Shown here: positions 7,998 to 55,715 of the stretch, one piece after another
Layout: the number at the start of each line of letters is the position of its first letter
How positions within the stretch are numbered: position 1 is the stretch's first letter
From: Nannobrachium achirus
Taxonomy: Eukaryota; Chordata; Actinopteri; Myctophiformes; Myctophidae
NCBI GenBank assembly: GCA_963921795.1
Contig: OY997639.1
Coordinates: forward strand, 45,901,805-45,965,804
Reading direction: 5' to 3'
DNA length: 64,000 bases
Notes under the pieces: model-generated
Databases searched by the model: none
Told to the model about the DNA's origin: nothing
The model's input: the letters and a program-made list of their open reading frames with translations, nothing else
Translations under genes and position numbers: made by a program

Positions 7998-9502
7998 GTT
8001 GCGACCGTAGGTCGCATTTACTATCAAACCCTGCACAAAGTGTAAGTCCGTCAGTCCGTCAGTCCGTCAGTCCGTCAGTCTGTCTGTCACACCTCACACT
8101 CTTGCCCTGCTCATATCTCCGCAACCGTTGCCCCGATCCATGCCAAATTTTGCACACACACTCCTTACCTGCCAAACTACAACCTCCAAGGAGCTCCAGG
8201 GACCCCCAGGTCCCTGGGGGACCCCCAGATGTCAAAAATGACCAAATGTGCTAAACTGACCAAATGACCACCCCAACGGGGCTGCTCACGGGGAATTCCC
8301 GGGGACCACCGACTCCTGGTGCTCCAGAACGGATGCAAAAGTGGTGGCGCCCCCAGTGGAGGACCCCCTACACTGCAGCTCACATAAAATGCCGTAACTC
8401 CGGCTAGGAGCGACCGGGACAGCCGGGGCCGGTACCTATTCGTCCGCCTTGCCGGCGCGGAGACCCCACCCCTCATTTCTCACATGGCCCTCTTCTAGCG
8501 CCACCATGAGGCCGATTCTTGCAAAACAAATTTTTGGACACTGCTCCTACAATTTTTGCCCTAAAATCACGCAAATCGGTACACAGTATGTCTACACTCA
8601 TCCCATCAACATGAATCTCTCCCATATAGCGCCACCTCCAGGCCGATTTTTAAAAACACATTTTTGGACACTGCTCCTACAGATTTTGCCCTAAAATCAC
8701 GAAAATCACTACACAGTATGTCTACACTCATGTCATCAACATGCACAAAGTGTAAGTCCGTCAGTCAGTCAGTCTGTCTGTCACCCCTCACACGTCACAC
8801 TCTTGCCCTGCTCATATCTCCGCAACCGTTGCCCCGATCCATGCCAAATTTTGCACACACACTCCTTACCTGCCAAACTACAACCTCCAAGGACCCCCGG
8901 AGCTCCAGGGACCCCCAGGTCCCTGGGGGACCCCCAGATGTCAAAAATGACCAAATGTGCTAAACTGACCAAATGACCACCCCAACGGGGCTGCTCACGG
9001 GGACTCCTGGTGCTCCAGAACGGATGCAAAAGTGGTGGCGCCCCCAGTGGAGGACCCCCTACACTGCAGCTCACATAAAATGCCGTAACTCCGGCTAGGA
9101 GCGACCGGGACAGCCGGGGCCGGTACCTATTCGTCCGCCTTGCCGGCGCGGAGACCCCACCCCTCATTTCTCACATGGCCCTCTTCTAGCGCCACCATGA
9201 GGCCGATTCTTGCAAAACACATTTTTGGACACTGCTCCTACAATTTTTGCCCTAAAATCACGCAAATCGGTACACAGTATGTCTACACTCATCCCATCAA
9301 CATGAATCTCTCCCATATAGCGCCACCTCCAGGCCGATTTTTAAAAACACATTTTTGGACACTGCTCCTACAGATTTTGCCCTAAAATCACGAAAATCAC
9401 TACACAGTATGTCTACACTCATGTCATCAACATGGATCAGGAAGATTTTGGCAAAACACATTTTTGCCCTATTTGTGGAGATAAGTGACCTACGGTCGCT
9501 TA
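7998..9502. repeat. ~0.7-kb tandem duplication bounded by small palindromes
   Basis: Unit 1 starts at about 8032 and unit 2 at 8742 (period about 710 bp; unit 2 runs to about 9434). The units look nearly identical apart from small indels, such as an extra GGACCACC-type segment in unit 1. Each unit holds two diverged subunits with the phrase TTTTTGGACACTGCTCCTAC. The block is framed by GCGACCGTAGGTCGC at 8000 and GTGACCTACGGTCGC at 9486. The ~100-aa ORFs inside have no domain and repeat because the DNA repeats. Confidence 0.85.
8046..8090. repeat. (GTCAGTCC)n short tandem repeat
   Basis: About five units of GTCAGTCC followed by GTCTGTCT. A shorter version sits at the same place in unit 2 (about 8757-8780). 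Confidence 0.85.
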
Positions 9503-14000: not shown

Positions 14001-14051
14001 CTGGAGACTTGCTAATTTGAAACCATGCATGTTTGGGGCTTGTCTTGGGCA
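14001..14051. repeat. 50-bp dispersed repeat shared with 16460-16510
   Basis: GGAGACTTGCTAATTTG.AACC followed by ATGCATGTTTGGGGCTTGTC occurs in both places with one or two differences, while the flanks differ. Confidence 0.75.
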
Positions 14052-14583: not shown

Positions 14584-15091
<508 letters not shown>

Positions 15092-15255
15092 TATGGCGGA
15101 GAGAGTCGCAGCCCCAGCCTGAAGCCTCAAAAAGTCTAGTATCTGCCCTCGTTCCATGGGGATATCCCTTTGAGGTAATGGTTAAGATATTGGACTTTCA
15201 CGCGGGAGACCCGCGTTCGAAACCGGGTGGGGAGGTTCGGATCACCTCCGTTACA
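15092..15255 (+). repeat. left (5') LTR of the TRIM-like element
   Basis: 164 bp, starting TATGGCGGAGAGAGTCGC (second base A where the right copy has G) and ending CACCTCCGTTACA. The tRNA-like segment is at about 15165-15236, with a B-box-like CGTTCGAAACC at 15214-15224, one change from consensus. Confidence 0.8.
15165..15236 (+). other. tRNA-like module in the left LTR
   Basis: The anticodon-side and T-arm sequence CTTTCACGCGGGAGACC followed by CGCGTTCGAAACCGGG resembles the 3' half of eukaryotic tRNA-Asp/Glu. The 5' anticodon half (TTGGA) does not pair with its partner, so a functional tRNA gene is unlikely. Confidence 0.6.
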
Positions 15256-15256
15256 T

Positions 15257-15274
15257 TGGTGCCGTGACCCGGAT
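15257..15274 (+). other. primer-binding site, tRNA-His type
   Basis: TGGTGCCGTGACCCGGAT is complementary to the 3' 18 nt of eukaryotic tRNA-His including CCA, with a single difference (canonical TGGTGCCGTGACTCGGAT, recalled from general knowledge). It lies one base after the left LTR, as expected for priming minus-strand synthesis. Confidence 0.8.
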
Positions 15275-15299
15275 CCGGGCTTCCCTGTAGGAGGAGGTC

Positions 15300-15312
15300 A
15301 AAGGGGGGTGAG
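15300..15312 (+). other. polypurine tract of the TRIM-like element
   Basis: AAAGGGGGGTGAG directly precedes the right LTR, the position used to prime plus-strand synthesis. The Gypsy element in this window has a similar tract (GTAGGGGGGAG) next to its right LTR. Confidence 0.75.
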
Positions 15313-15475
15313 TGTGGCGGAGAGAGTCGCAGCCCCAGCCTGAAGCCTCAAAAAGTCTAGTATCTGCCCTCGTTCCATGGGGATATCCCTTTGGAGTAAT
15401 GGTTAAGATATTGGACTTTCACGCGGGAGACCCGGGTTCGAAACCGGGTGGGGAGGTTCGGATCACCTCCGTTAC

Positions 15476-15476
<1 letters not shown>
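15313..15476 (+). repeat. right (3') LTR of the TRIM-like element
   Basis: 164 bp, from TGTGGCGGAGAG to CTCCGTTACA, followed by TATATA. It carries the better-preserved tRNA-like module. Confidence 0.8.
15386..15457 (+). promoter_or_regulatory. tRNA-like module with A-like and B boxes in the right LTR
   Basis: TGGAGTAATGG (15392-15402) is close to the Pol III A-box consensus TRGYNNARNGG. GGTTCGAAACC (15435-15445) fits the B-box consensus GGTTCGANNCC exactly. Their 43-bp start-to-start distance is tRNA-like. The loop CTTTCAC would place a TTC anticodon. The anticodon stem is disrupted, and the T stem has one mismatch or an 8-nt loop. Pol III transcription is inferred, not shown. Confidence 0.6.

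Positions 15477-15542
<66 letters not shown>
15477..15542. repeat. (TA)n tract, right part
   Basis: Continuation of the interrupted TA microsatellite. Confidence 0.95.
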
Positions 15543-15689
15543 ATTCGTTCCCTCTCTTGATGTACCTTGCTCTTTACTGTACTCTTCTTGTTTTTTTTTT
15601 GTTTTTTTTTTCTTTTTTGTTTTTCTTAATTCTCTGTAACTTTTGTAAATAACCTTATACTGCTGTGCTGCCTCTGGGCATAATAAAGG

Positions 15690-16459: not shown

Positions 16460-16510
16460 TTGGAGACTTGCTAATTTGGAACCATGCATGTTTGGGGCTT
16501 GTCTTGGGCA
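16460..16510. repeat. 50-bp dispersed repeat shared with 14001-14051
   Basis: Same sequence as the earlier copy (ATGCATGTTTGGGGCTTGTC core). It lies at the edge of the unique block described before it. Confidence 0.75.
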
Positions 16511-47858: not shown

Positions 47859-48078
47859 TGTGAGGGGGTGGAAGTAGCGTTATCCTTTTTATTTTTTATT
47901 TTCTTTAATAATTGTTTGTTTTTACAATTATTTCCTTTTGTTTGAGCATGTTTTGTATAATTTCTCTAATATGTTTCGTTGTGATAATGCTATATTGCTG
48001 TCTCCCTCTAACAACCTCCTCTCTTTCCATGTGTGAGTCTGACTGCGAACTGATAGGATAACTAGACGCCGGTGCTGG

Positions 48079-48150
48079 CCAATGTATGGGGGACTGACGT
48101 CATGACCAGCCAATGGGCGGCTGGCAGAGTGGGAGGCGGCCCTTTAAGAG
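48079..48150 (+). promoter_or_regulatory. candidate U3 core promoter
   Basis: Two CCAAT boxes (48079-48083, 48110-48114) flank a perfect CRE, TGACGTCA (48095-48102). CCTTTAAGAG at 48141 could serve as a TATA-like element. The same block is present in the 3' LTR. An AP-1-like GTGACTCAGG lies downstream near 48219. Confidence 0.45.
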
Positions 48151-49046
48151 GAACGCCAGGCTCAGTCTAGGTTGACAAGCAAGGGGCGCAGACGTGTGTG
48201 TGGAGCAGGCTGAGGGAAGTGACTCAGGTGGCCGGCTGTGATGAGCAGAGAGACAGGCACAGGCCGAGCCAGGCAGTAACTGAACTGAACCTTATTGAAC
48301 TAAAGTGCTAGGACCGAGTAGCGCTTTACCTTACAAACCCAGCGGATTCCAGACGGTGATCCGGGTGTCAGCGGTACCAGGCAGGGTCCGGCCATCCAGA
48401 GACGAGCGAGAGGGTCCTGACGAGCCGAACCGGCTACCCGGCTAACGAGAGGGGTCGTTGTGACTACTGTGGTGTCGTGTGAACTATTCGCAGCGGCAGG
48501 TCACAAGCCTGCCTGCGTGTGAGTATCCAATCCTGTACACCACTGTCACTAAAGTCACTGGCCTAGAGTTGAGCTGTATAGTCGTCACGACAAGGATACT
48601 GGCGTATTCTTTGTATTCACAGAACGGTGGACTAAAGACGTAGATGACCAAAGATGAGCTGTGTGCCGCTGTGTGTGCCATCCCACCTGCTGTAGAAGTC
48701 ACTATTCCCACCTGCTGAAACGATACTCTGCCTATTATTTCATATCTGCTTAGTTATATAACATTTATTCGTCCTTAAATCTGCGCTCCTTGCATTATAA
48801 ATAATTATCGTAATTATTATACTATTACGATTTGAGGCCTTAACGAGCCGGTACCCTAAACTAAGTGCACTTTAATTGTCACCAAGAACGTTACGATAAG
48901 AGAAAGAAGGGGGGTTTGAATTAATGTTTTATTGTTGACAGTGCTCTTATTTTTAGTTTTTTAGTTAGTTGGCGCCGTAGGATTTTAGGGTTCCCTTTTA
49001 TTTTATTATTGTGTTTTTGGCGTGATAGAGGCCGCTGTAACCTAGT

Positions 49047-49052
49047 AATAAA
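49047..49052 (+). promoter_or_regulatory. polyadenylation signal in the 5' LTR
   Basis: AATAAA. The equivalent at 55402-55407 in the 3' LTR would be the one used for the genomic transcript. Confidence 0.6.
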
Positions 49053-49365
49053 GATTGTTATACTTTTCTAAACTGTCGTCCTGGTCATTCTCTCCTCATG
49101 ATTTATATTGCTCTGGTGTTCCGTAAACGAACTTGTGTGTCCCTAAAGGTTGTGCCTTTTGTGCACTTATTTTCCTCTTTAAACGAGGTGGCGTTGTCGG
49201 AAACTTATAATTATACAATCTGCTAATGATAATACTTAATAATATACAACAAACCAAAAAGGTGTATTTACAATTATTTATTGGCAAATTCAGTAACAAG
49301 GTAATGACAAAGGTACCAGTTTAAACACTGGCGGTTAATGTGAGTTGGGCCACCCTTACATAAAT

Positions 49366-49391
49366 TGGCGTTTGTAGCGGCAGGATCGGAC
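49366..49391 (+). other. candidate primer-binding site of the Gypsy element
   Basis: TGGCGTTTGTAGCGGCAGGA starts 5 nt after the LTR. The TGG start and GGCAGGAT phrase resemble the complement of a tRNA-Ser-like 3' end (TGGCG...GGCAGGATTCGAAC), but an insertion-like difference of 3 nt keeps the primer tRNA unproven. Confidence 0.5.
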
Positions 49392-49421
49392 ACAGAGCAA
49401 TATAGAGGAGAGAGTGAATAA

Positions 49422-50345
49422 GTGTGTAATTGTGAACTTGTTAATATGATGATGATGCCGGTGTATCCGGGCGCCCCGTGGCTGCCCACGTTTGGAGGTA
49501 CAGAGGGTGAACTTAAGTACAGGGAATGGAAAGTACAGATTAAAGGGCTATTGGGGACGCAAGATGTTAATGAGGCTAAAAAGGTTGCCATTCTATTACA
49601 AACCTTGACTGATGAAGCTAGACGGCAAGTTAATGTGTTGGATGAGGGGGATCGAGATACTGTGGCCAAAATCTTTGCTCATCTAGATAACGTGTACAAG
49701 GAAACAATCCCTGTTGCAAAGGTACGCTCACAATTTTATAGTTGCGCACAGCGCCCTGGAGAGAGTGTCAGTGCCTTTATTCTGAGACTTAGAGAATTAT
49801 TTTGTGGGTTGCGGCGTTATGATGCGACTACAGCCCCCTCCGAGGCCGTCTTGAAAGACCAGTTTCTTATGGGGTTAACTGAGGGCCCACTTGGTCAAGC
49901 ACTGAGAATATATGCTCGACGCCACCCTGACGAAGACTTCGCCGCGCTGCGACAGGAGGCCTTGACGTTGGACACGGAACATGGAGGTACGCCAGCTACT
50001 GAAATCGCTTGTCATGCTATTAACCCCGTAACTGTCCCTGTGCCACCACAGACCTCTGCGTGGAGAGATGAGCTGAAGCGAGAAATAATGGAGGATGTCA
50101 AGACGCAGTTGCACGGTATGACGAAAGAGTTGATGAGTGAACTCCGACCGCTCATCCAGGCTGCCGCTCCTGCTGTGCGTCCCCAACCACCGCCGTCTGA
50201 GGCGTCCTATGTGCCACCTGCGCGCCGGTACGCGCCACCTCAGAGATATGAATGGGATGGGGAGGGGAGGCCCATATGCCGTCAATGCAAACGGTCAGGA
50301 CATATAGCTAGATGGTGCACTACTAATCAGCCGTCGTTAAACTAA
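49422..50345 (+). CDS. gag: retrotransposon Gag polyprotein
   Basis: A 307-residue protein that would assemble the cytoplasmic particle and package element RNA. The N-terminal half (about residues 20-200) resembles the retrotransposon Gag capsid region, e.g. YREWKVQIKGLL and RSQFYSCAQRPGESVSAF. A Pro-rich linker follows. One CCHC zinc knuckle sits near the C-terminus: C286, C289, H294, C299 (spacing 2-4-4). The first ATG is at 49422, but four consecutive ATGs at 49446-49457 give a strong alternative start 8 residues later. It lies just downstream of the primer site and upstream of pol in the -1 frame. The stop is TAA at 50343-50345, immediately after the candidate slippery site. It is intact. 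Confidence 0.9.
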   Translation: MCNCELVNMMMMPVYPGAPWLPTFGGTEGELKYREWKVQIKGLLGTQDVNEAKKVAILLQTLTDEARRQVNVLDEGDRDTVAKIFAHLDNVYKETIPVAKVRSQFYSCAQRPGESVSAFILRLRELFCGLRRYDATTAPSEAVLKDQFLMGLTEGPLGQALRIYARRHPDEDFAALRQEALTLDTEHGGTPATEIACHAINPVTVPVPPQTSAWRDELKREIMEDVKTQLHGMTKELMSELRPLIQAAAPAVRPQPPPSEASYVPPARRYAPPQRYEWDGEGRPICRQCKRSGHIARWCTTNQPSLN

Positions 50346-50376
50346 ATCGTCCTGTTGCCGAGGTCCAGGCAACAGG
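50336..50376 (+). promoter_or_regulatory. candidate -1 ribosomal frameshift signal
   Basis: The heptamer GTTAAAC (50336-50342), read G TTA AAC in the gag frame, abuts the gag stop codon. After an 8-nt spacer, CCTGTTGCC (50351-50359) pairs perfectly with GGCAACAGG (50368-50376) around an 8-nt loop. GUUAAAC is a known -1 slippery heptamer in arteriviruses. Position, frame and stem together make a convincing signal. Confidence 0.75.
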
Positions 50377-53300
50377 AGTCCCCTTATCTGTGACACATAC
50401 TCGGGCCAATGATGCATTTATCGGGCAATGCCCCATGATTAAAGTAAAGATGGGAGGCGTTCACTTAAAAGGGTTGCTTGATACGGGGTCCCAAGTCACT
50501 TTAATGCAACAGAGCTTATTTGAAGAACACTTCTCTCAAACTGATTTAGGTGCAGGGCCACTTGTGTTTAAATTAAGAGCAGCAAATGGCCTGGACATAC
50601 CGTACACTAGTTATGCGGTATTTGATTTGGAGCTAGAGGGAGTGCAAGTCCCAGGGCGAGGGGTCGTAATTGTTAAAGATGAACACTGTACGCAGCCCTT
50701 GATTATTGGCATGAACGTAGTGAGTGCATGCTGGCGTACACTGTTTAAATGGCCTGGGAGGGTTGCGTTTCCCCCGCGTCAAGCGAACGCGTTGTGGCGA
50801 GACGCATTCGCTGCCTGTAAAAGAGTTGAGGCTGTGACTAATGATGACGGGTCTTTGGGTTATGTGTGGCCCGTCAGTCGCCAAAGGATTCGGGTCCCCG
50901 CCCGCAGTGAAATGGTTGTATGGGGACGCACACGTCGGGGACCGGGAGGAACTGACTTTGAGGCTCTGGTCGAGGCGCTACCAGACATGAAGGAATTGGG
51001 GTTGGCGCGCGCCTTGGTTACGGTACGGGGCGGGCGGGTCCCTATTCGTCTCTGTAACCCCTTTCCTTATAGCCTGACGGTGAGGCGCTATCAGAAGTTG
51101 GGGAAACTGTACCCTGTGCATGATGCTGATGTTCGGGGAAGTCAAGATCTGAGCCTGTCCATGTCCGCTGATGGCCTGGTGGATGTTGCCCTGGTGAGCG
51201 CTGCGGAAGACGGACCCGTGCGCACCCTATCCCAAGAACTCGGTGGGCTGGCTGATCGCACTGACCTGCCCGAGGGAGAGAAAGAGGGACTGCAGTCCAT
51301 GTTGCTGAGATGGGAAAAGGTGTTTGCTGTACACGATGAAGATTTCGGGCGGACGGACGCCGTGCAACACCAAATCCACACAGCGGGCGCCGCACCCATT
51401 CGTGAGCGACACAGGCCACTGCCGCCCTCCATGTACAAAGAAATGAAGGCCTTGTTAGGTGACATGTTGGCGAAAGGAGTCATCGCGGAGAGCTGTAGTC
51501 CGTGGGCCGCACCGATTGTGCTGGTTAAGAAGAAGGACGGCAGCTGGAGGTTCTGCGTGGACTACCGTAAGTTGAATGCAGTTACCCATAAAGACGCGTT
51601 CCCTTTACCTCGTATTGAAGAAACATTGACCAGTTTGACTAAAGCACAGTGGTTCTCGACTCTTGATTTGGCCAGTGGGTATTGGCAAGTAGGCATGGAT
51701 CCCCGTGATCAAGAAAAGACTGCCTTTACGACCCCACTGGGTCTGTTTGAATTCAAACGAATGCCCTTCGGGCTGTGTAATGCGCCTGCTACGTTCCAGA
51801 GACTCATGCAGCACTGTTTAAGTGGACAAGTAGCTGAGTCTTTATTAGTTTATTTGGACGATATTATTATCTACTCCCCTGACTTCTGTTCTCATCTACA
51901 GCAGCTGGATCGGGTGTTCCAGCGACTATGGAAGCACGGACTGAAACTGCGCCTTGATAAATGTAAACTGTTACAACGTGAAGTGCAGTTCTTGGGGCAT
52001 GTGGTGGACCGGGAGGGAGTGCGCCCCGACCCAGACAAGTTAGTGGCGGTGCGAGGGTGGCCAATTCCAACCACGGTGCGGGAGGTTCGTGCATTTCTGG
52101 GTCTTGCAGGCTATTACCGCCGTTTTGTAGAATCATTCGCTGCTATAGCCCGTCCACTGAATAATCTCTTAATTGGGGTCCCCGTTGATAACAAGTCCTC
52201 ACAGAAACCGATTATATGGACGGCAGAATGTCAAGCTGCTTTCGATGCGCTAAAAGGTGCCCTCACCCAAGCTCCGGTGTTGGCCTATGCTGACTATGAG
52301 GAACCTTTTGTGGTATATACGGATGCGAGCCACCGGGGGTTGGGTGCAGTGCTAGCCCAAATCCAAGATGGGAAGGAACGAGTTATCGCGTATGCGAGTC
52401 GTAGTTTGCACCCAACAGAACAAAATGATGCTAATTATAGTTCCTTTAAATTAGAGTTATTGGCCCTTAAATGGGCTGTAACCGAGAAATTTAAAGATTA
52501 TTTGGCTGGGGCGCGGTTCACTGTATTTACCGATAATAACCCGGTGGCGCACCTCCAGACAGCTCGCTTGGGCGCTATCGAACAACGCTGGGCGGCCCAA
52601 TTGGCTTCTTTTACGTTTGAGATTAAGTACCGGCCAGGCAAGAACAATGCTAATGCTGACGCCCTATCTAGATTTCCTGTAGACACCGGGGCGGTCGCGA
52701 CGGTGGAACTAACGCCCGCAGCAGGAAATGCTGGCTGGGCTGGTGCTGAGTGGCTGCGAGCACAGAAGGATGATGAGGCTATCCAGGTGGTGACGCGGTG
52801 TGTGGAGAGGGGCATCCACCCTACGTTGACAGAGAAGAGGAGCTGGACGAAAGAGGCGGCCCAGCTGTTGCGCCAATGGACGAAACTGCGGGTGGAGGGG
52901 GGGATATTGTACCGTAATGTGACTGACCCTTACACCCAGGAAGAATATTTACAAGTTGTCTGTCCAGGTTCCAGGAGGAAGGAGGTGTGGAGAGAGATGC
53001 ATGTGGCTGCGGCACATGCGGGGGTGGACCGGACGCTGGTGCAGCTCCGGCGGCGTTTCTACTGGCAAGGCATGGAGGGGGAGGTACGTCGTTTCCATGA
53101 GGGCTGTGTAAACTGTAGCTTACAAAAAACTAGGGTCGAGCCTAGAGCCCCTTTACAACCTTTCGAAGTCTCGTACCCCTTAGAAGTGGTGGCTATTGAT
53201 TTCCTTACCCTGGGTCGACCTGCCGACACCTGTCAAAATATCCTTGTAGCCACAGATCTATTTACTAAATATAGCTGGGCCATACCCACACGTGATCAAA

Positions 53301-54172
53301 CTGCTCAGACCACTGTTCGGGTGTTATGGACCCATATTATACAGCCGTACGGTTGCCCCGCCCGTTTTCATTCGGACAGAGGCGCTAACTTCGAGTCTGC
53401 GCTCATGCAACAGTTATGTAATAATTATGGTATTACTAAGAGCCGTACTACGCCGTATTACCCAGCCGGAAATGGTGGCGTGGAACGCTGTAATCAAACG
53501 GTACTTAATTTACTACGCTCGTTGGACACTGATAAGCATGGCCGATGGCCTGAGCATCTGCCTGAGTTGATTCATGCGTATAATAACACTCCTCACAGCG
53601 CCACTGGCTATGCCCCGGCGTTTCTAATGTTTGGCCGCCATCTGCGGCGCCCTGTAGACGTGGAACTGGGAGTACAGCCTAGGCAGGACAGATTTGGGGT
53701 GGGGGACTGGGTTCAGCATCACCAACGGCGGTTGAATGATGCGTATCGCACCGCAGGGCAAAGGATGGAAAGGATGGCAGAACAGCGCAAGCGCATGTAT
53801 GACAAGAGGGCGGGTATCCCACCGTTGGTATCCGGAGAGCGAGTGTGGGTGAGAAATCGGAACAGACAGGGGCACGGGAAGTTGGCTTCTTGGTGGGACC
53901 CAGAACCCTTTGTTGTACTAGAAACAGTGGGCGAAGCTGGGCTAGTTTATAGGATTCGACCAGAAAAGGGTGGGCGAGATCGAACGGTGCACCGTAATGC
54001 CTTGAAAGTCTGTGTAGCGCCTCCAGAGGTGCCCCAGTGTCCCGAACCGACACCCCAGCAGCCAGTCGTGGGGCCGGTGTGGCAGCAGTGTTATGGTTTT
54101 TTCCCCGTAGCTCAACGACGTTCAGGGCGGGCTAATTTTGGGCAGCCGCCCGTACGCTACAGCCCTGGTTGA
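50336..54172 (+). CDS. pol: Pol polyprotein: protease, reverse transcriptase, RNase H, integrase
   Basis: The frame opens after a stop at 50324-50326, overlaps the end of gag and ends at TGA 54170-54172. It is reached by -1 frameshift (no ATG near the start; GTG 50390 is used below as residue 1). Domains: aspartic protease with LLDTGS (D31); reverse transcriptase with LDLASGYW (D426) and YLDD (D490, D491); RNase H with YTDAS (D645), E689 and D715; integrase zinc finger H871, H876, C906, C909; integrase core D937, D996, E1032 with the D,D-35-E spacing; then a GPY/F-like region (WWDPEPFVVLE, near residue 1165). No chromodomain is recognisable. All catalytic residues are present and there are no frameshifts, so the enzyme could be active. 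The proteins would copy the element RNA and insert the cDNA. Confidence 0.95.
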   Translation, partial: VKLNRPVAEVQATGVPLSVTHTRANDAFIGQCPMIKVKMGGVHLKGLLDTGSQVTLMQQSLFEEHFSQTDLGAGPLVFKLRAANGLDIPYTSYAVFDLELEGVQVPGRGVVIVKDEHCTQPLIIGMNVVSACWRTLFKWPGRVAFPPRQANALWRDAFAACKRVEAVTNDDGSLGYVWPVSRQRIRVPARSEMVVWGRTRRGPGGTDFEALVEALPDMKELGLARALVTVRGGRVPIRLCNPFPYSLTVRRYQKLGKLYPVHDADVRGSQDLSLSMSADGLVDVALVSAAEDGPVRTLSQELGGLADRTDLPEGEKEGLQSMLLRWEKVFAVHDEDFGRTDAVQHQIHTAGAAPIRERHRPLPPSMYKEMKALLGDMLAKGVIAESCSPWAAPIVLVKKKDGSWRFCVDYRKLNAVTHKDAFPLPRIEETLTSLTKAQWFSTLDLASGYWQVGMDPRDQEKTAFTTPLGLFEFKRMPFGLCNAPATFQRLMQHCLSGQVAESLLVYLDDIIIYSPDFCSHLQQLDRVFQRLWKHGLKLRLDKCKLLQREVQFLGHVVDREGVRPDPDKLVAVRGWPIPTTVREVRAFLGLAGYYRRFVESFAAIARPLNNLLIGVPVDNKSSQKPIIWTAECQAAFDALKGALTQAPVLAYADYEEPFVVYTDASHRGLGAVLAQIQDGKERVIAYASRSLHPTEQNDANYSSFKLELLALKWAVTEKFKDYLAGARFTVFTDNNPVAHLQTARLGAIEQRWAAQLASFTFEIKYRPGKNNANADALSRFPVDTGAVATVELTPAAGNAGWAGAEWLRAQKDDEAIQVVTRCVERGIHPTLTEKRSWTKEAAQLLRQWTKLRVEGGILYRNVTDPYTQEEYLQVVCPGSRRKEVWREMHVAAAHAGVDRTLVQLRRRFYWQGMEGEVRRFHEGCVNCSLQKTRVEPRAPLQPFEVSYPLEVVAIDFLTLGRPADTCQNILVATDLFTKYSWAIPTRDQTAQTTVRVLWTHIIQPYGCPARFHSDRGANFESALMQQLCNNYGITKSRTTPYYPAGNGGVERCNQTVLNLLRSLDTDKHGRWPEHLPELIHAYNNTPHSATGYAPAFLMFGRHLRRPVDVELGVQPRQDRFGVGDWVQHHQRRLNDAYRTAGQRMERMAEQRKRMYDKRAGIPPLVSGERVWVRNRNRQGHGKLASWWDPEPFVVLETVGEAGLVYRIRPEKGGRDRTVHRNALKVCVAPPEVPQCPEPTPQQPVVGPVWQQCYGFFPVAQRRSGRANFGQPPVRYSPG

Positions 54173-54199
54173 GTTGGTCGCAGGGACTGCTAATGATTT

Positions 54200-54211
54200 A
54201 GTAGGGGGGAG
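54200..54211 (+). other. polypurine tract of the Gypsy element
   Basis: AGTAGGGGGGAG directly before the 3' LTR, the plus-strand primer site. Only 39 nt separate the pol stop from the LTR. Confidence 0.85.
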
Positions 54212-55715
54212 TGTGAGGGGGTGGAAGTAGCGTTATCCTTTTTATTTTTTATTTTCTTTAATAATTGTTTGTTTTTACAATTATTTCCTTTTGTTTGAGC
54301 ATGTTTTGTATAATTTCTCTAATATGTTTCGTTGTGATAATGCTATATTGCTGTCTCCCTCTAACAACCTCCTCTCTTTCCATGTGTGAGTCTGACTGCG
54401 AACTGATAGGATAACTAGACGCCGGTGCTGGCCAATGTATGGGGGACTGACGTCATGACCAGCCAATGGGCGGCTGGCAGAGTGGGAGGCGGCCCTTTAA
54501 GAGGAACGCCAGGCTCAGTCTAGGTTGACAAGCAAGGGGCGCAGACGTGTGTGTGTGGAGCAGGCTGAGGGAAGTGACTCAGGTGGCCGGCTGTGATGAG
54601 CAGAGAGACAGGCACAGGCCGAGCCAGGCAGTAACTGAACTGAACCTTATTGAACTAAAGTGCTAGGACCGAGTAGCGCTTTACCTTACAAACCCAGCGG
54701 ATTCCAGACGGTGATCCGGGTGTCAGCGGTACCAGGCAGGGTCCGGCCATCCAGAGACGAGCGAGAGGGTCCTGACGAGCCGAACCGGCTACCCGGCTAA
54801 CGAGAGGGGTCGTTGTGACTACTGTGGTGTCGTGTGAACTATTCGCAGCGGCAGGTCACAAGCCTGCCTGCGTGTGAGTATCCAATCCTGTACACCACTG
54901 TCACTAAAGTCACTGGCCTAGAGTTGAGCTGTATAGTCGTCACGACAAGGATACTGGCGTATTCTTTGTATTCACAGAACGGTGGACTAAAGACGTAGAT
55001 GACCAAAGATGAGCTGTGTGCCGCTGTGTGTGCCATCCCACCTGCTGTAGAAGTCACTATTCCCACCTGCTGAAACGATACTCTGCCTATTATTTCATAT
55101 CTGCTTAGTTATATAACATTTATTCGTCCTTAAATCTGCGCTCCTTGCATTATAAATAATTATCGTAATTATTATACTATTACGATTTGAGGCCTTAACG
55201 AGCCGGTACCCTAAACTAAGTGCACTTTAATTGTCACCAAGAACGTTACGATAAGAGAAAGAAGGGGGGTTTGAATTAATGTTTTATTGTTGACAGTGCT
55301 CTTATTTTTAGTTTTTTAGTTAGTTGGCGCCGTAGGATTTTAGGGTTCCCTTTTATTTTATTATTGTGTTTTTGGCGTGATAGAGGCCGCTGTAACCTAG
55401 TAATAAAGATTGTTATACTTTTCTAAACTGTCGTCCTGGTCATTCTCTCCTCATGATTTATATTGCTCTGGTGTTCCGTAAACGAACTTGTGTGTCCCTA
55501 AAGGTTGTGCCTTTTGTGCACTTATTTTCCTCTTTAAACGAGGTGGCGTTGTCGGAAACTTATAATTATACAATCTGCTAATGATAATACTTAATAATAT
55601 ACAACAAACCAAAAAGGTGTATTTACAATTATTTATTGGCAAATTCAGTAACAAGGTAATGACAAAGGTACCAGTTTAAACACTGGCGGTTAATGTGAGT
55701 TGGGCCACCCTTACA
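54212..55715 (+). repeat. 3' LTR of the Gypsy element
   Basis: 1504 bp. The only difference from the 5' LTR that I found is one extra TG in a GTGTGTG stretch (near 54555). Three small antisense ORFs have identical translations in both LTRs, which supports the near-identity. Confidence 0.95.
55402..55407 (+). terminator. polyadenylation signal in the 3' LTR
   Basis: AATAAA, in the same LTR position as at 49047. It is the likely 3'-end signal of the element transcript. Confidence 0.6.

Follow-up and report, generated by a model that had tools for sequence, protein, structure and literature searches.

A probable Helenus-type miniature retrotransposon with a degenerate tRNA gene in its long terminal repeats

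Terminal-repeat retrotransposons in miniature (TRIMs) with tRNA-derived sequence in their long terminal repeats (LTRs) have been described under the name Helenus, the 'twin brother of Cassandra' (Kojima 2024, PMC10886601). Here we compare them with a 385-bp element at positions 15092-15476 of a 64,000-nucleotide stretch of contig OY997639.1 (assembly GCA_963921795.1, positions 45,901,805 to 45,965,804 of the forward strand), referred to as the window. The element is very probably a copy of a Helenus-type TRIM, that is, a non-autonomous LTR retrotransposon with a degenerate tRNA gene in its LTRs. This kind of element has been known since 2024, fishes included, and our confidence covers the kind, not the family.

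Helenus was found by searching the LTRs of Repbase with tRNA sequences and those of SINE2, the tRNA-derived short interspersed elements (SINEs). The elements are 311-1263 bp long, with hosts among fungi, one plant and six animal phyla (PMC10886601). The vertebrate hosts are the coelacanth (families LTR1_LCh and LTR2_LCh), sterlet, paddlefish, zebrafish and other Ostariophysi; the zebrafish family LTR-11_DR numbers 5575 LTRs and has relatives in Cypriniformes, Siluriformes and Gonorynchiformes (PMC10886601). Animal Helenus elements have 4-bp target duplications, and those of vertebrates use tRNA-His, -Leu or -Lys as primers (PMC10886601). The modules of fish Helenus have been aligned with tRNA-Val-CAC, and most, not all, families feature a box A with TRGCY and YGG and a box B with GGTTC (PMC10886601). 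In many species, the LTR consensus of the published families includes the module; a SINE insertion into an LTR has been proposed as the origin of the group, and Gypsy has been suggested as the mover of its animal members (PMC10886601). The same work proposes the term TRIMp3 for TRIMs with RNA polymerase III (Pol III) promoters and states that the Pol III function of Helenus is without experimental proof (PMC10886601). Among the matches listed, Kojima 2024 is the only primary description of LTR elements with a tRNA promoter that was recognised; a 2026 meeting report (PMC12859917) mentions it.

The assignment to the Helenus type follows from the LTR pair and its termini, a primer-binding site (PBS) for tRNA-His, a tRNA score exceeding that of shuffled sequence, the pairing of A and B boxes, the sense orientation of the tRNA-like module, and Helenus traits that are either present or compatible. 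The element comprises two 164-bp direct repeats, the LTRs, around 57 bp of internal sequence (Table 1). The repeats are identical at 160 of 164 positions (161 of 165 if the T shared just past each LTR end is counted), with four differing columns, and they correspond to a family of 163 nt and 98% identity (D4) in the repeat search of the window. The LTRs start with TG, or TA in the left copy, and end with CA. Because TGTGGCGGAG and CTCCGTTACA form imperfect terminal inverted repeats, as judged by eye, the start of the 5' LTR is placed at TG(T); a start at 15094 is a possible alternative. The PBS is complementary to the 3' end of tRNA-His at 17 of 18 positions, the next best member of a 26-tRNA panel reaching 14 of 18. 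A search of the window with the first 16 bases of the PBS, at no more than 3 mismatches, finds no second such site. The features by which a TRIM is recognised are all present: two LTRs, an overall size below 1000 bp, the lack of coding capacity, a PBS 3' of the 5' LTR and a polypurine tract (PPT) 5' of the 3' LTR. The window holds no further copy. Exact DNA pattern scans of viral and prokaryote sequence collections returned 0 matches to the TRIM, a negative that such collections make little informative. The TRIM is flanked by a 50-bp sequence present in two copies of 98% identity (14002-14051 and 16461-16510, 2.46 kb apart).

Both LTRs contain the tRNA-like module, in the same sense as the PBS. 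The tRNA comparison consists of local alignment to a panel of 26 human tRNA sequences. For the right LTR the best scores are 51 (Val-CAC, Val-AAC and Gln-TTG), 50 (Asp-GTC) and 49 (Glu-TTC). The preliminary description of this DNA had likened the sequence to the 3' half of tRNA-Asp/Glu; the likeness is not confined to these two. Over the whole panel, the best scores of 1000 dinucleotide-shuffled versions of the right LTR average 23 and peak at 39, compared with 51 for the real sequence, and its reverse complement scores 28.

The A-box consensus used is TRGYNNARYGG. In the right LTR, the A-box-like TGGAGTAATGG and the exact B box GGTTCGAAACC are present as had been reported, 43 bp apart from start to start, as in a class I tRNA gene. 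The exact B box that had been claimed for each LTR is borne out on the right, but the left LTR has CGTTCGAAACC, one mismatch away from the consensus, and its A box, TGAGGTAATGG, is also the poorer of the two. At no more than one mismatch, GGTTCGAAACC has two matches in the window, both inside the TRIM; the expectation for the window is 0.65, and two matches turn up in 14 of 100 shuffles. By itself, GGTTCGAAACC is weak evidence. The pair of boxes is stronger evidence than the B box alone. An A box with at most one mismatch, followed at tRNA-like spacing by the B-box core, occurs once in the window when both strands are searched, the left LTR failing this search, and none of 5000 dinucleotide-shuffled versions of the right LTR combines such an A box with the full B-box consensus. 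A chance pairing of A and B motifs was rejected on these two counts.

In its minimum-energy fold, the right module retains five of seven acceptor-stem pairs (one of them G-U) and a T-arm hairpin with an 8-nt loop, while its D and anticodon arms are not canonical. The corresponding fold of the left module has the acceptor stem and lacks the T-arm hairpin. Neither fold is more stable than those of shuffled sequences (z of 0.47 right and -0.22 left). ARAGORN (bacterial setting) identifies 0 tRNAs in the window, the Rfam matches with E values up to 10 do not include the tRNA model, and a wide Rfam scan of the TRIM and its flanks gives 29 matches, mostly derived from TA repeats and none to tRNA. 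The reading as a tRNA gene was rejected, as ARAGORN and Rfam call none. The module is read as a degenerate tRNA gene that retains the promoter layout, with a promoter rather than a tRNA role.

Table 1. Positions of the TRIM and its parts within the window
Feature	Positions	Strand	Remarks
5' LTR	15092..15255	+	164 bp; begins TATGGCGG where the 3' LTR has TGTGGCGG
3' LTR	15313..15476	+	164 bp; TGTGGCGG...GTTACA
Internal region	15256..15312	+	57 bp; no space for any gene
PBS	15257..15274	+	TGGTGCCGTGACCCGGAT; follows the single T at the start of the internal region, one base past the 5' LTR
PPT	15289..15308	+	AGGAGGAGG-TC-AAAGGGGGG; stops 4 bases short of the 3' LTR; read from the sequence
tRNA-like module, 5' LTR	15164..15235	+	best tRNA score 47, without a shuffle control of its own
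A-box-like site, 5' LTR	15171..15181	+	TGAGGTAATGG, 2 mismatches
B box, 5' LTR	15214..15224	+	CGTTCGAAACC, 1 mismatch; core GTTCGAAAC intact
tRNA-like module, 3' LTR	15385..15456	+	72 nt by tRNA numbering; alignments cover at most 15386-15455
A-box-like site, 3' LTR	15392..15402	+	TGGAGTAATGG, 1 mismatch
B box, 3' LTR	15435..15445	+	GGTTCGAAACC, exact
Candidate target duplication, left copy	15088..15091	.	TATA, 4 bp, within TA microsatellite
Candidate target duplication, right copy	15477..15480	.	TATA, 4 bp

The likeness to Helenus is judged from the published description and the one copy at hand. This copy shares with Helenus the TRIM form, the tRNA-derived LTR sequence, the PBS and PPT, and a length within the published range. 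Its tRNA-His PBS corresponds to one of the primers of vertebrate Helenus, and Val-CAC, the comparison tRNA for the fish families, ties for the best score.

Several observations weigh against the assignment. The agreement with the box motifs of most Helenus families is mixed: neither LTR matches the TRGCY of box A, the corresponding sequences being TGGAG and TGAGG, both have its YGG (as TGG), and the GGTTC of box B is found in the right LTR only, the left having CGTTC. The boxes account for three of the four LTR differences, with two neighbouring ones in the A box and one in the B box, and promoter conservation is thus not apparent in this copy. Conservation of the boxes would be expected if every copy were under selection; the two adjacent A-box differences may represent one event, and conservation at the level of the family is beyond the reach of a single copy. 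The TATA/TATA target duplication sits in a TA repeat and is therefore not diagnostic; even lengths of 2, 4 and 6 bp fit the flanks and 5 bp does not, which is compatible with the 4 bp of animal Helenus. Finally, the TRIM contains no T4 terminator, its longest sense-strand T-run being 3, and AATAAA, ATTAAA and AGTAAA are all absent from it.

Cassandra of plants is likewise a TRIM with the Pol III promoter of a small-RNA gene in its LTRs. The preliminary description had proposed a tRNA counterpart of Cassandra, and the anatomy agrees: LTRs, PBS, PPT and a sense module in both LTRs. The two differ in that Cassandra LTRs hold 5S rRNA sequence rather than a tRNA-like module, and in the primer, which is methionine tRNA for Cassandra according to PMC10853983 and tRNA-His here. 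Cassandra LTRs also have conserved Pol III terminators (PMC10886601, PMC7215508), whereas this element has none. Membership in Cassandra was rejected, as no 5S rRNA family is among the Rfam matches for the TRIM. Ajax of nemerteans belongs to the same TRIMp3 group and also features Pol III promoter sequence in the LTR, but that sequence is a partial 5S rRNA promoter, the target duplications are 5 bp and the primer is tRNA-Leu (PMC10886601). TRNA-derived SINEs (SINE2) have in common with the TRIM the tRNA-derived A and B boxes and possibly read-through into flanking DNA; they are without LTRs, PBS and PPT and use the machinery of long interspersed elements (LINEs).

Three other explanations account for parts of the same evidence. 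An ordinary TRIM transcribed by RNA polymerase II (Pol II), in whose LTR a tRNA-derived SINE had inserted, would make the tRNA part a passenger, restricted to this copy or its subfamily. Such a passenger would suit a module with no recognised tRNA structure and LTR differences that strike the boxes in three of four cases, and the proposed origin of Helenus is itself an event of this sort. The module is, however, present in both LTRs, with neither a poly(A) tail nor a target duplication of its own to be seen by eye, and the LTR lacks an AATAAA for Pol II 3'-end formation. Since the module belongs to the LTR consensus of published families, a separate SINE in this copy alone is unlikely if the element is Helenus, and we consider the passenger explanation improbable.

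Two tRNA-like units 221 bp apart might also be taken for a tandem SINE or a pair of tRNA genes instead of an LTR element. The LTR-type ends, PBS and PPT speak against this, as do the absence of an A-rich tail (by eye) and of any tRNA call, and it is very hard to sustain. Slightly less credible still is that a unique 164-bp sequence, which happens to contain box-like motifs, was duplicated in tandem, with no retroelement involved. This would be in keeping with the single copy in the window and with its location inside a microsatellite, but would leave to coincidence a PBS that matches one tRNA at 17 of 18 positions and begins one base past the repeat, a PPT just upstream of the second repeat, and the inverted TG...CA ends.

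For the Helenus-type TRIM, the layout of the boxes tips the balance slightly toward transcription by Pol III. The polymerase, with TFIIIC bound at the two boxes, would start the RNA near the beginning of the module in the 5' LTR, the tRNA-like part acting as a promoter and not as a tRNA, and the transcript would continue through the PBS, the PPT and the 3' LTR. A host tRNA-His would then prime reverse transcription, with reverse transcriptase and integrase provided in trans by a Ty3/Gypsy element, and integration would produce a 4-bp duplication.

The end of this RNA is a difficulty for the scheme. Under the T4 terminator rule for Pol III, and in view of the missing polyadenylation motifs, the TRIM RNA is without a standard end signal. 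When the right LTR is shuffled 1000 times, 618 of the resulting sequences lack T4; being this common by chance, its absence is no evidence of selection. Because the TRIM has no T4 terminator, its RNA may end in a T-run of the flanking DNA, the nearest downstream run of at least four T being at 15591, 115 bp past the end of the TRIM. SINE transcripts often read through to T-runs in flanking DNA in this manner. The 3' LTR would then serve as an internal landing site for strong-stop DNA, and strand transfer would still be allowed. We offer this combination, a SINE-like read-through transcript to the T-run at 15591 together with an LTR mechanism using an internal rather than a terminal 3' R, as a tentative proposal that is more apt to fail than to hold. 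In the main text of PMC10886601 the string 'terminat' appears twice, each time about Cassandra, and no statement on the end of Helenus RNA was seen there.

A Ty3/Gypsy-type element, whose gag-like and pol frames are long and open, is located at 47859-55715 of the window. Its LTRs (about 47859-49360 and 54212-55715) measure 1502 and 1504 bp and are identical except for one 2-base gap; this near-identity suggests a recent insertion. It was rejected as the autonomous partner of the TRIM, as the PBS search described above yields no match elsewhere in the window. A crude coding-potential scan for exons of the host, in which segments scoring >22 were retained and those with a composition of <3.3 bits dropped, yields four segments in the window; the Gypsy frames account for two of them, and the other two overlap dinucleotide repeats. 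Dinucleotide repeats are dense, and the CpG observed/expected ratio is 0.53 (0.55 without dinucleotide runs); both features are compatible with a fish host, though they show no more than that. Two arrays, at 8496-8743 and 9187-9438, each repeat a near-identical 130-bp unit about 1.9 times, their starts 691 bp apart.

The preliminary description knew of no described example of a vertebrate element with a tRNA promoter in its LTR. Helenus is such an example, with fish families included (PMC10886601), and the claim to novelty falls: LTR elements with a tRNA-type promoter, those of fishes too, have already been published. What this locus retains is the value of a clean single copy that poses a testable question, namely where Helenus RNA ends. 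Read-through, if true, would amount to a hybrid SINE/LTR replication route, unlike that of Cassandra with its Pol III terminators in the LTRs. And if the host lies outside the published fish range of Ostariophysi, sturgeon and paddlefish, and coelacanth, the copy would widen the known distribution of Helenus.
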